Made by a program: the position numbers and the translations under genes. Of a DNA stretch of 61,408 nt, positions 55,230-59,156 are shown in pieces. How positions within the stretch are numbered: the first letter of the stretch is position 1; every line of letters begins with the position of its first letter. Source of the DNA: Desulfuromonadales bacterium (GTDB taxonomy: Bacteria > Desulfobacterota > Desulfuromonadia > Desulfuromonadales > BM103); assembly GCA_027065695.1 (NCBI GenBank), contig JAMONP010000105.1, positions 1-61,408 on the forward strand, given 5' to 3'. The notes under the pieces were generated by a model, which saw only the letters and a program-made list of their open reading frames with translations, made no database searches and was not told the DNA's origin.

Positions 55230-55664
55230 TTAACCACCAAGTATGTAGTGCTCCAGCTGGTTGATCATAAAGTCCTTTTCGGCTACATGTGCATTGACCA
55301 GGTCACCGATGGAAACCATTCCAATCAGTTTCTTGTCCTCCAAAACGGGCAGGTGGCGGCAGCGCTTGTCGGACATCAGGGCCAGACCCTCTTCAACACT
55401 CTTATCCTTGGTAATGTAGAGGACTTTGGTGGCCATGATATTTTCGACAGACGTCTTGAGAGACGAGCGCCCTTCGAGGATCACTTTCCGTGCGTAGTCG
55501 CGTTCAGAGATGATACCGACAACCTGCTGACCTTTCATGACGAGCAGAGCGCCGACATTTTTGGCGGCCATTAACTCCAATGCGCTATAAACAGTTGCAT
55601 CAGGGCTGATATTGATTACAGAGTCGCCCTTTTTCTTCAGTACGTCTCGGATTGATTTGATCAT
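55230..55664 (-). CDS. Paired CBS-domain protein
   Basis: 144 residues comprising two CBS domains (about 8-62 and 75-130): ATVYSALELMAAKNVGALLV, VGIISERDYARKVILEGRSS, VEEGLALMSDKRCRHLPVLE and LIGMVSIGDLVNAHVAEKDF. AAAGGAGG precedes the ATG by five bases. Stand-alone CBS pairs bind adenosine nucleotides and act as energy sensors or regulators; the partner is unknown. A structured intergenic segment with a strong terminator lies just upstream on the same strand. Confidence 0.92.
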   Translation of the reverse strand: MIKSIRDVLKKKGDSVINISPDATVYSALELMAAKNVGALLVMKGQQVVGIISERDYARKVILEGRSSLKTSVENIMATKVLYITKDKSVEEGLALMSDKRCRHLPVLEDKKLIGMVSIGDLVNAHVAEKDFMINQLEHYILGG

Positions 55665-55795
55665 ACGGGCCTCCTTTATGAGTTCGGGGGAGAATTCTGT
55701 TCCCTTAACTCTAGCGGAGGCGTATGGGTTGTCAATCGGCGAATAGACCGGGTCGGCTATTTAATGCCTTTGTGAGGGTTATACAAATAAAAAAA

Positions 55796-55817
55796 GGGCC
55801 TCATAACATCAAGGCCC
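55796..55817 (-). terminator. Strong Rho-independent terminator
   Basis: On the minus strand GGGCCT, a 10-base loop, AGGCCC, then a run of eight T (55788-55795). It ends a minus-strand transcript that comes either from glpD or from the structured region just upstream. Confidence 0.85.
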
Positions 55818-55960
55818 AGGAGGTAACTTTTAACTAGCAGGTGGAAAGATCTTTGTGTTGTTCGCTAAACTTAAGTGTCCAATCTGCGTCATCCCAGTGT
55901 GGTGGTGCCGTTTGAACGGGTCAGGATCCCGTCCAAAGGCTCTGGGGTCGGCAACGTGTA
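55818..55960 (-). ncRNA. Candidate structured non-coding RNA
   Basis: Between glpD and the CBS gene, the minus strand holds a nested hairpin. CCCAG (55942-55946) pairs with CTGGG (55893-55897), enclosing GCC-TTTG-ACGGG..CCCGT-CAAA-GGC (55907-55940). It is followed within 100 bases by the terminator at 55796-55817. No credible start codon serves the overlapping open frames. It could be an independent small RNA, a 3'-UTR-derived RNA of glpD or a cis-regulatory element. I do not recognise a known family. The 5' end is arbitrary. Confidence 0.4.
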
Positions 55961-56099
55961 ATTCTTGATCAACACTATAGGGGGCAGGGTGTGACAGGAG
56001 CGTAGGGAAAATGTGAAAAAAACGTGAAAATTTATTTATTTGTAGGAATGAGGGACCATTATTAACGTCTTTGGTTACTACAATTATGTGTCAACGTAA

Positions 56100-57716
56100 C
56101 TAAAGACCCTCGCTTAAGAGTTGTTCTGTAATTTGACGCTCATCCTTGCAGCGTTGTAGATCCCAGCTCAACTCCTTCGCCATGATCTCCAGCACCCTGG
56201 GGGCTGCCGTCCTGGCTGCTGCAATATCAAGCCGTGCCAAAGGCGTTCGACGGGCCAGAACATCAATCACCCGCTCGGCCATTTCATAACGCACTGCATA
56301 GATAACCTCCGCTTCGAGAATCGGATGATCCTTTACCAGGCGTATGGCCTTGTGCGGCGAGGTTAACCGGGCAACCTGTTCCGCCTGGTCACCGTAAGTT
56401 CGATGTAGATATGCAGCAATGTCGGCAGCAAAGCCATATTTTTTAACCAGGGCCTGGTCGCCATGCGCATGGTAGTTGGCCCCACCGAGGATCGGCAGAT
56501 GCTTGGTTTGACAGCCCGGATTTGGTGTTTCAAGGCGAAAGCTTATTAATGCCTGATCTATGGTGTCCATTGCCATTTCCCGGTAGGTTGTCCATTTACC
56601 TCCGGCAATTGTCAGCAGGCCGTCTGTACTCACCTCGATCACGTGATCTCTGGCCAGGCTGGCGGTGTCCACTGCTTCTGGATCGCGAACCAGTGGCCTT
56701 AAACCGGACCAGGTGGCCTTGATATCAGATCTCTCAACCTTCAGATTGAAATAGCGGGTGACGTGACGCAGCAGATAGTCGATTTCCTCTTCGAGGGGCC
56801 TGGGATGCTCGGTGATTGCTGCCGGTTCGTCCGTAGTACCGATCAGGGCATGATCTTCCCATGGAAGCACAAACAGGACGCGGCCATCATCGGTTTCAGG
56901 AATCATCAGGCCCGTGTCTGCTGGTGCAAAACGTTTATCGAGCACGATGTGAATGCCCGTGCTGGCGGAGATGATTTCACTCGCGGCAGGGTTATCCATC
57001 TTCCTGATGCTGTCGGCAAAAGGGCCGGTCGCATTGATCACGCCTCTAGCGTGTAGCGGCCAGCTTTCACCAGTTAGCGAATCAGTCAACTCAGCGCCAC
57101 TGATCTGGCCTTCTTCTTTGAGCAACATGGTAACGGCAACGTGGTTGCTAATGCTTGCGCCATGGCATTCTGCAGTTAAAGCCAGAGACAAGGCCATGCG
57201 GGCATCATGGAATTGACCGTCGTAATAGAGGACCCCGGCTTTAAGGCCTGCCGGTTTCAACATCGGGAAGCGGCGCAGGGCTTGTTTGCGACTCAGCAGG
57301 CGGCTGTGACCAATATGGCGCTTGCCGGAAAGGAAGTCGTAGAGTTTGAGACCGGCAAAAACATAAGGGACATCGATCCATCGGTAGAGCGGGGTGACCA
57401 GCGGCAGGCGATTGGAAAGATGCGGCGCATTTTTCAAGAGCAGGTAGCGTTCTTTGAGACCATCCTTGACCAGATGGTACTGGACACGGTCCAGCTTCTT
57501 GATCGCAGCCTCAAGGTAACGTACACCACCGTGAACCAACTTGGTGCTGCGGCTGCTGGTCCCTTCAGCGAAGTCGTTCTTTTCAATCAGGGCAACTTTC
57601 AGGCCGCGGGTTACCGCATCAAGTGCGACCCCGCAGCCGGTTGCGCCGCCGCCGATGATGAGCAGGTCAAACGTCTGCCCGGTTTTTAATTGCTCCAGAT
57701 GCTGCTCTCTTGTCAC
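56100..57716 (-). CDS. glpD: Glycerol-3-phosphate dehydrogenase (FAD-dependent, GlpD/GlpA type)
   Basis: 538 residues starting at GTG 57716, with GGAGGG upstream. FAD-binding Rossmann motif FDLLIIGGGATGCGVALDAV (about 16-36), then EKNDFAEGTSSRSTKLVHGG and VRYLEAAI. Later segments are VINATGPFADSIRK, IPETDDGRVLFVLPWEDHAL and the C-terminal domain with IVEVSTDGLLTIAGGKWTTY-type sequence. It oxidises glycerol-3-phosphate to dihydroxyacetone phosphate and feeds electrons to quinone at the membrane. It starts 15 bases after the exported msrA, so it is read with the msr genes. No glpF or glpK is here. Confidence 0.92.
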   Translation of the reverse strand: MTREQHLEQLKTGQTFDLLIIGGGATGCGVALDAVTRGLKVALIEKNDFAEGTSSRSTKLVHGGVRYLEAAIKKLDRVQYHLVKDGLKERYLLLKNAPHLSNRLPLVTPLYRWIDVPYVFAGLKLYDFLSGKRHIGHSRLLSRKQALRRFPMLKPAGLKAGVLYYDGQFHDARMALSLALTAECHGASISNHVAVTMLLKEEGQISGAELTDSLTGESWPLHARGVINATGPFADSIRKMDNPAASEIISASTGIHIVLDKRFAPADTGLMIPETDDGRVLFVLPWEDHALIGTTDEPAAITEHPRPLEEEIDYLLRHVTRYFNLKVERSDIKATWSGLRPLVRDPEAVDTASLARDHVIEVSTDGLLTIAGGKWTTYREMAMDTIDQALISFRLETPNPGCQTKHLPILGGANYHAHGDQALVKKYGFAADIAAYLHRTYGDQAEQVARLTSPHKAIRLVKDHPILEAEVIYAVRYEMAERVIDVLARRTPLARLDIAAARTAAPRVLEIMAKELSWDLQRCKDERQITEQLLSEGL

Positions 57717-57731: not shown

Positions 57732-58322
57732 TCAATGAGTTGCCTTATCGCCCCAGATAGCTTTTAAACGTTGATCGCGACCACAGTTCCACCGATAAGC
57801 ATTGTAGCGAATGGGGTTGTTCTTGTAATAATCCTGGTGGTAACTTTCGTCTCCCTTGATTGGGTAGAAGATTGTCGCATCCAGGATGGGTGTGACCACT
57901 GTCTGGTCTGGGAACATCGCGACAACGCGTCGCTTCGATTTTTCGGCAAGGTCCCTTTCCGATTTATTGGCGACGAAAATTGCTGCCAGGTAACTGTACC
58001 CTTTATCACAGAATTGCCCGCGATCATCAAAGGGGTCAATATTTACCCAGTAATGATCAAGCAGCTGCTGGTAGCTCACCTGGTTTGGGTCATAGGTGAT
58101 TTCGACCGCTTCATAGTGCCCTTCATGGTTGCCGTTGTAGGTCGGGTCTTGCAACGTGCCGCCGGTAAATCCGGAGACTACATCGGTAACACCATCAAGT
58201 TTTTCAAAATCTGATTCCATGCACCAGAAGCAGCCTCCAGCCAGGATCGTTTTGTCGGCCAGGGCATTTGTAGCAAAAATGAGCATGATGGTTAAGAGGA
58301 AAAGGGTTCGTTTGTATTTCAT
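57732..58322 (-). CDS. msrA: Exported peptide methionine sulfoxide reductase MsrA
   Basis: 196 residues with a signal peptide (KYKRTLFLLTIMLIFATNALA), so the enzyme acts in the periplasm. The catalytic motif is LAGGCFWCMESDFEKLDGV (about 29). Also GFTGGTLQDPTYNGNHEGH, DPFDDRGQFCDKGYSYLAAI and YHQDYYKNNPIRYNAYRWNC. Extra cysteines (CFWC, FCDKG, C-terminal WNCGRD) could provide resolving thiols. It lies between msrB and glpD on the same strand. Together with MsrB it can repair both sulfoxide epimers in envelope proteins. Confidence 0.93.
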   Translation of the reverse strand: MKYKRTLFLLTIMLIFATNALADKTILAGGCFWCMESDFEKLDGVTDVVSGFTGGTLQDPTYNGNHEGHYEAVEITYDPNQVSYQQLLDHYWVNIDPFDDRGQFCDKGYSYLAAIFVANKSERDLAEKSKRRVVAMFPDQTVVTPILDATIFYPIKGDESYHQDYYKNNPIRYNAYRWNCGRDQRLKAIWGDKATH

Positions 58323-58406: not shown

Positions 58407-59021
58407 TTATTTGAACAACGTTGTGTATTCTTCGTAACCTTCTTTCTCTAAATCTGCTTGAGGGATGAAACGCAGTGCCGCCGAATTCATGCAGTAGCGC
58501 AACCCGGTTGGAGCTGGTCCATCATTGAAAACATGACCAAGGTGCGAGTCGGCGTCTTTGCTGCGGATTTCGGTACGGACAGAGAAGAAACTGCGGTCCT
58601 GCTTCTCAACGATTTGGTCAGGATCCAAAGGCTTGGTGAAGCTTGGCCATCCGGTCCCGGATTCATACTTGTCAGTGGAACTGAAAAGCGGTGCGCCGGA
58701 GATGACATCGACATAGATCCCCGGTCTGTGATTATCCCAGTAGGCATTGGAGAAAGGCGGCTCGGTGCCATCCTGCTGGGTGACTTTGTACTGCAACGGG
58801 GTAAGACGACTGCGGAGTTCTCGATCGTTGGGAATCATAGTCTGGCCTTCCTTCTTTTCCCCCTCAGCTTTCTTCATGTTCATATTGTCGTGCTTAATTA
58901 ATTGAGACACTGTCATGTCATTGGCCTTGTCCATCTTCTCGTCCATACTCTTGCTTTGTACCTGGACAAACCCTATCATAACCAAGGTTAAGCTGAGGAT
59001 TGTTATCGTCAAAATTTTCAT
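58407..59021 (-). CDS. msrB: Exported peptide methionine sulfoxide reductase MsrB
   Basis: 204 residues from the ATG at 59021, which has GGAG six bases upstream; longer starts lack one. Signal peptide [20 protein letters not shown], then a Met/Lys/Asp-rich linker (about 25-65). The MsrB domain runs from about 70 to 200: [52 protein letters not shown] and MNSAALRF with the catalytic Cys. The zinc-site cysteines of many MsrBs are missing ([13 protein letters not shown] in place of CxxC). It precedes exported msrA by 84 bases, suggesting an msrB-msrA-glpD unit. Confidence 0.92.
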
Positions 59022-59156
59022 GGTGTTCTCCATTTGTTGTTCAGCAGTTACGCTGGCTTTCTTTTCTATAGCCAAAGTATAGCAGGGCTGAGGATTGTCT
59101 GCATACATAGAGCAGTGTCATCACCGATAAATAGATGTTGTGTCGGCAGAGCCTGA

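Follow-up and report, generated by a model that had tools for sequence, protein, structure and literature searches.

RsmY and RsmZ sequester RsmA/CsrA through GGA motifs, and sponge RNAs of this kind carry repeated, conserved GGA triplets in their loops. The GacS/GacA system of Pseudomonas is said to act exclusively through these two sRNAs (PMC4132741). The csRNAs of the CiaRH system of Streptococcus are described as sibling RNAs whose promoters consist of the regulator's direct repeat and a spaced -10 box, followed by a terminator; CiaR is described as controlling 15 promoters, not those of sRNAs alone (PMC3091779). Similarly, LhrC1-5 of Listeria are portrayed as multicopy, strictly LisRK-dependent, Hfq-binding RNAs with C-rich motifs, and no LisR consensus was known at the date of that report (PMC4132741). 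On two-component-controlled sRNAs of Desulfuromonadales or Geobacter we found no paper, as judged by titles and abstracts, nor one describing the RNA family presented below.

Could a spacer in a Desulfuromonadales genome hold an RNA of this kind? The stretch of DNA that we analysed, called the window below, is 61,408 nucleotides long. A gap of 435 bp, the length given in an earlier note on this DNA, separates a glpD-like ORF from the ORF of a CBS-domain gene in it, and most likely, judging from its sequence, this gap contains the gene of an apparently new small regulatory RNA. The features of the locus are as follows.

55230-55664, minus strand: CBS ORF (CBS-domain gene), one flank of the gap
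55789-55966, minus strand: predicted small RNA of ~178 nt, with its start set 7 nt past the -10 box and its end at the U tract
55789-55817, minus strand: intrinsic terminator, stem GGGCCUUG...GAGGCCC (55817-55796) and U7, from the terminator scan, the R2 model and covariation
55819-55826, minus strand: anti-Shine-Dalgarno motif UUACCUCC, directly 5' of the terminator; UUGCCUCC in most relatives
55893-55946, minus strand: 5'-domain hairpin in two parts; a single bulged base (C55910) and a conserved 3' bulge; covariation
55899-55906, minus strand: conserved 3' bulge ACCACCAC, which relatives mostly have as ACUACCAC or AUUACCAC; G002 and G003 lack one base of it
55974-55979, minus strand: -10 box TATAGT; the fourth half-site occupies the place of a -35 hexamer, of which no separate copy was seen
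55991-56028, minus strand: predicted response-regulator binding site, four half-sites TTCACGTTTTT TTCACATTTTC CCTACGCTCCT GTCAC at 11-bp steps, ending 11 nt 5' of the -10 box
56100-57716, minus strand: glpD-like ORF, the other flank of the gap

The earlier note had read this spacer as a candidate for a structured RNA on the minus strand, 100-200 nt long and of no recognised class, and the sequence evidence supports an RNA gene of this description. The nested hairpin that it described is present on the minus strand at 55946-55893, with an outer stem CCCAG/CTGGG and an inner stem GCC/GGC plus TTTGGACGGG/CCCGTTCAAA, and so is its terminator, a stem at 55817-55796 followed by seven T. The unit that it delimited, 55796-55960, is too short, as the RNA spans about 55966-55789 and the promoter reaches 56028; the note makes no mention of the promoter and its regulator repeats, nor of the CCUCC motif, a sibling RNA or a linked two-component system. 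Its remark that open frames across the gap have no start codons holds in part: on the minus strand, two frames with starts overlap the unit, one of 20 aa (ATG) and one of 28 aa (GTG), but no start-bearing frame is conserved among relatives. The Rfam scan that it had suggested gave no match in the window at the gathering threshold, and the same threshold returned only tRNAs for 20 loci with homologues or siblings. Matches to neisseria_FSE, suhB and ZNRD1-AS1_2 at relaxed thresholds were rejected, as they lie far below the cut-offs of their own families. Among the neighbouring ORFs, those at 57732-58322 and 58407-59108 (minus strand) resemble, by eye, MsrA-/MsrB-type methionine sulfoxide reductases.

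On one sequence alone, the fold is barely above chance (z = -1.79, with 10 of 200 shuffles folding equally well), and a terminator scan of 2 kb gave 2 sites, compared with 2.3 expected from shuffles. The case for a real RNA element is therefore made by homology, not by single-sequence signal. Of 58 related genomes searched at the nucleotide level, 8 gave a match, and 7 of these, including the genome of the window, were kept; G035 was dropped as a chance match, its first matching stretch looking like coding sequence by eye. We then ran a covariance model of the hairpin (R1, built from 13 sequences) on 136 genomes of the order, and it matched 14 of them: all 11 genomes of the genus and 2 of the 11 other family members, with one copy each, and G088, which was dropped as a chance match in a stretch judged by eye to be coding. 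The 13 real matches are the model's own building sequences, matched by construction, and include the hairpin of the window (55883-55956, 88 bits, its sequence being part of the model); no further real member emerged among the 136 genomes, a search in which only the best candidates were scored and which may lose some weak matches.

The genes around the RNA change from one homologue to the next. Neither CBS nor GlpD is encoded at the 12 other hairpin loci or at 9 other sibling loci (flanks of at most 1.5 kb, less where a contig ends). The hairpin RNA of G008 neighbours a TadA-like and a transhydrogenase-like gene, and those of G002, G003, G009 and G010 neighbour a kinase gene and an MFS or beta-barrel-like gene (all by eye). 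Since the flanking genes differ among homologues, we do not regard the RNA unit as a cis element.

The earlier note had also suggested looking for compensatory changes among relatives, and these are found in both the hairpin and the terminator stem. Across 13 genomes, five hairpin pairs changed on both sides, in 11 such cells, with 88.2% of the cells paired; none of 500 shuffles reached the covariation score, although the shuffle controls, here and for the terminator, ignore the kinship of the sequences. Two weaker hairpin measures are only moderate, as 38 and 98 of 500 shuffles attained them. The ACCAC of the 3' bulge is kept in 13 of 13 hairpin RNAs; the extraction pattern required ACCAC, and none of the 13 was lost by this requirement. 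In the terminator stem, compared over 20 RNAs, four pairs changed on both sides in 16 cells. No shuffle of 500 reached the covariation score of this stem, while 36 reached its number of both-side-changed pairs and 390 its number of further pair types.

Directly 5' of the terminator, the CCUCC of the window's RNA is predicted to be unpaired with a probability of 0.67, compared with a mean of 0.86 over 20 RNAs, and it is less accessible than in 18 of the 19 other folded RNAs. Medium-length forms of the family have two or three CCTCC motifs each, which would suit a pairing RNA.

Half-sites at 11-bp steps are the layout bound by OmpR/PhoB-type regulators, and from its sequence the box is predicted to be bound in this way. 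The box stands 5' of all seven homologues that had been found by RNA similarity alone. Searched with up to two mismatches in the 22 genomes of the family, the box pattern gave 24 sites in 14 genomes, two of them in the window's own genome, and none in the reversed control. CCTCC lies downstream of 22 of the 24, which lead into a family RNA with T(G/A)CCTCC. The box matches G007-C38 and G008-C149, which have neither T-rich repeats nor CCTCC downstream, were dropped as chance. An earlier, differently registered pattern with three mismatches recovered both sites of the window's genome together with one control match. Furthermore, a strict two-repeat core gave 20 sites in the 22 family genomes and none in the control, all 20 before a family RNA; these sites were already within the box-pattern set, and weaker repeats elsewhere are outside the reach of the pattern. 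The -10 box starts with TA and has T as its sixth base in 22 of 22 promoters, always with the 11-nt spacing. It was outside the search pattern, and the conservation of the half-sites is partly due to the pattern itself.

In a named collection of 84,980 species genomes, the box pattern matched 33 stretches. CCTCC follows within ~260 bases in 17 of these, and 16 of the 17 records are named Deltaproteobacteria, Desulfuromonadales or Geobacteraceae, many being the same contigs as in our own genome set; the remaining record bears the name Shewanella and is probably misbinned. The 16 stretches not followed by CCTCC are largely simple repeats, two of them in records named Deltaproteobacteria or Desulfobacterales.

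The second box of the window's own genome (G000:C43:23332-23369) is followed by a short RNA of ~71 nt, which has the same 3' module as the long copy, without the hairpin domain. This short sibling lies behind the genes of an OmpR-type regulator (domains Response_reg and Trans_reg_C) and a kinase (HAMP, HisKA and HATPase). The kinase was found at E < 1e-40 in 15 of the 22 family genomes: it is encoded in all 14 box-bearing genomes and in 1 of the 8 genomes without a box (G020). In 13 of 13 genomes with kinase and box on one contig, a family promoter starts 12-182 bp past the kinase match and in the same orientation, distances that were computed from match coordinates and leave out G005, whose contigs are broken there. 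The sibling behind the kinase is a hairpin form in 8 of these 13 genomes and a short form in 5, and 4 of the 5 short-form genomes have a hairpin copy elsewhere, as in our window; in the remaining one, G017, there are two copies, neither matched by the hairpin model.

Across the family, 20 of the 22 box-driven RNAs have an intact module and terminator, and two copies in G004 are degenerate. The module alignment and the accessibility folds comprise 20 RNAs, leaving out G004 C19 and C444, one of which was missed by the extraction pattern while the other has a degenerate terminator. G004 has three extra box-driven short copies; two of these have decayed terminators, and those two precede near-identical gene starts.

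Around the short sibling (G000:C43:19000-26500), the order is gltB-like, gltD-like, OmpR-type regulator, kinase, short sRNA (names partly by eye), and then a beta-barrel-like secreted protein without a Pfam or NCBIfam match and an MFS (YbfB-like) transporter; parts of this order recur beside the RNA in relatives. At G020:C105, a kinase 55% identical to the linked one is followed by degenerate TTCAC-N6-TTGAC-N6-TTCAC repeats (by eye) and then by a gene resembling a methyltransferase (by eye); no family RNA lies there.

Is the 3' module confined to this family? A model of the module (R2, 20 sequences) matches the terminator module of the window at 55787-55829 with 55.3 bits, this sequence being part of the model. 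Against 277 genomes of the class, it gave 23 places in 17 genomes at E <= 5e-4, of which 20 are the model's own sequences (14 genomes) and 3 are new. All three new matches (G026, G133 and G046) fall in a single genus, which belongs to a different family of the order and in which a short RNA ends in UUUGCCUC(C/U)GGGG and a terminator. Their promoters have GG-N10-GC in all three, which is of the sigma-54 type, with GTACAAATTT-type inverted repeats upstream (by eye). In G046, and by eye likewise in G133, the short RNA lies behind an NtrC-type sigma-54 activator with a receiver domain. The placement of the module beside an NtrC-type regulator hints at rewiring, and the likeness may stem either from shared ancestry followed by a change of promoter or from convergence, the motif being short. 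In all three genomes, the short RNA precedes an LTA-synthase-like gene (by eye). Five weaker R2 matches in G028, G051, G074 and G075 (E 0.0018 to 0.0065) were rejected, being terminators without CCTCC before the stem.

How might the RNA act? The gene limits (as far as sequence gives them), the conservation, the covariation, the shared box, the linkage and the presence of Hfq come from sequence comparison, and from these we infer transcription, activation, regulator binding, Hfq binding, mode of action and targets. The RNA is probably an Hfq-assisted, trans-acting sRNA that is switched on by the linked system and blocks Shine-Dalgarno sequences. The OmpR-type regulator, made with the histidine kinase beside the short sibling, would bind the 11-bp direct repeats, as the linkage and the repeat spacing suggest, and in its phosphorylated form it would recruit RNA polymerase, standing in for the missing -35 contact. 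The RNA of ~178 nt would end at a U-rich intrinsic terminator suited to Hfq, which would hold the U tail, and the single-stranded CCUCC would pair with the Shine-Dalgarno sequences of target mRNAs, so that translation is blocked. The 5' hairpin with its ACYACCAC bulge might be a second contact site of the long sibling. Hfq was found in the window's own genome, in 17 of the 22 family genomes and in 11 of the 11 high-quality family genomes; it was not found in 5 of the 22, none of which is of high quality.

A search of four genomes for the target pattern GGAGGCAAC-N1-9-ATG gave 18 matches, compared with 6 in the controls together. Few of them are at real gene starts, and one is the reverse strand of the G002 sRNA itself. 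Genes whose real starts were matched include one for a TAXI-type binding protein, one for an amino-acid binding protein and that of HemE, all named by eye. In 4 of 8 loci (one start window, in G005, is misplaced), the TAXI gene carries AGGAGG(C/T)AA(A/C) 5' of its start, but this motif is an ordinary strong Shine-Dalgarno sequence and no proof of a target. Neither the four-genome pattern search nor the 8 TAXI loci brought out a conserved target beyond ordinary strong Shine-Dalgarno sequences.

Could a different regulator switch on the RNA? A real sRNA driven by a regulator of the same fold, e.g., PhoB, with the linked pair a mere neighbour, is unlikely. The linked regulator does match the PhoB model too, below the cut-off, as it matches many models of its class, and the box repeats resemble a pho box in layout. 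On the other hand, the upstream regions of phoB and pstS in the same genome carry CTAAC-type repeats, not TTCAC (by eye), the box is confined to genomes with the linked kinase, and the G020 kinase is followed by degenerate TTCAC-type repeats even though no family RNA comes after them. Control by PhoB, a first reading of the repeats, was set aside after the phoB and pstS upstream regions had been inspected by eye; their CTAAC-type direct repeats (G000:C32) may be the organism's pho box (by eye). Titration of a protein, as by a CsrA sponge or a 6S-like RNA, in place of mRNA pairing would fit a structured RNA that has several GGA triplets in the window's copy. We consider it quite improbable, given that GGA is unconserved across homologues (the hairpin domains of G001 and G004, for example, have none) and that there is neither an end-to-end 6S-like fold nor an Rfam 6S match.

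A dual-function RNA or the mRNA of a small protein seems very improbable to us. One frame through the hairpin (55883-55956, minus strand, and its homologues) gives a similar peptide, xxFKRHYHSx (FKRHYHSG-like), in most homologues, but the window's RNA has no upstream start codon in that frame (by eye), the frame has a stop in G005, and net indels shift it in G002 and G003; the similarity is possibly a by-product of RNA conservation. The position of the RNA, with glpD on one side, the CBS gene on the other and all three on the minus strand, would be expected of a riboswitch or attenuator of the CBS gene or of the 3' end of the glpD mRNA; yet the 12 other hairpin homologues have neither CBS nor GlpD nearby, the RNA has its own conserved promoter, and ~124 bp separate its U tract from the CBS start, which leaves such a cis element little room for belief. 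As for a hairpin and terminator that arose by chance and have no function, the weak single-sequence fold score agrees with it, and the conservation, the covariation and the shared promoter linkage contradict it to the point where we regard it as almost negligible.

A trans-acting sRNA under the linked two-component system is thus the reading that we compare with the known families. The locus has the features of two-component-regulated trans-acting sRNAs in general, namely regulator repeats in the promoter, an independent terminator and linkage to the regulator. With the csRNAs, as described in PMC3091779, it shares several siblings per genome, a repeat-driven promoter, a terminator and a sequence complementary to the Shine-Dalgarno that is predicted to be unpaired. 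On the other hand, the CiaR repeat TTTAAG-N5-TTTAAG is replaced here and in the relatives by TTCAC-N6-TTCAC, and the csRNAs are reported also to carry an anti-start-codon sequence and to belong to Gram-positive hosts (PMC3091779). The LhrC RNAs resemble it as multicopy, two-component sRNAs, one C-rich motif of which is described as covering the lapB Shine-Dalgarno (PMC4132741). They differ in having UCCC motifs in two loops and a linker, under a regulator, LisR, that is reported to control many other genes (PMC4132741); of the LhrC pattern of UCCC in loop A, linker and terminator loop, the aligned terminator loops here carry no UCCC. In its wiring the family is reminiscent of GacA and RsmY/Z, but unlike these sponges of the CsrB type it has no GGA conserved in the hairpin or module alignments. 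We place the RNA outside the csRNAs, LhrC and RsmY/Z because it lacks one defining feature of each. By analogy, the family most likely works like the csRNAs and LhrC, yet belongs to neither.

Two further comparisons concern the anti-Shine-Dalgarno sequence and the wiring. The aSD RNAs SmelA075 and SmelA099 of Rhizobiales likewise have an anti-Shine-Dalgarno in an unpaired part of a trans-acting sRNA, but in theirs three or four hairpin loops are described as each carrying CCUCCUCCC (PMC3927594), whereas here CCUCC lies in the linker before the terminator. NfeR1 of Sinorhizobium meliloti, whose description contains the terms anti-Shine-Dalgarno and CCUCCUCCC, is similarly a trans-acting sRNA wired to a two-component system, though with the opposite sign: NtrC is reported to repress NfeR1, LsrB to activate it, and NfeR1 to silence ntrBC (PMC10746234).

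As far as the strict pattern tells, the full box stands before sibling anti-Shine-Dalgarno RNAs and nowhere else. It is possible, although we would lean against the combination as a whole, that a two-component system of one Desulfuromonadales family has sRNAs as its only direct output, that the 3' module of these sRNAs is portable, and that the 5' hairpin is a second functional domain, which siblings have gained or lost. The RNA family, with its box, its presumed cognate regulator and kinase, its two siblings and its motif, is defined enough to be probed directly. If the box truly serves sRNAs only, it would add a further layout, besides GacA-RsmY/Z, in which a sensor speaks through RNA alone, and it would do so by blocking ribosome-binding sites, not by sequestering a protein.
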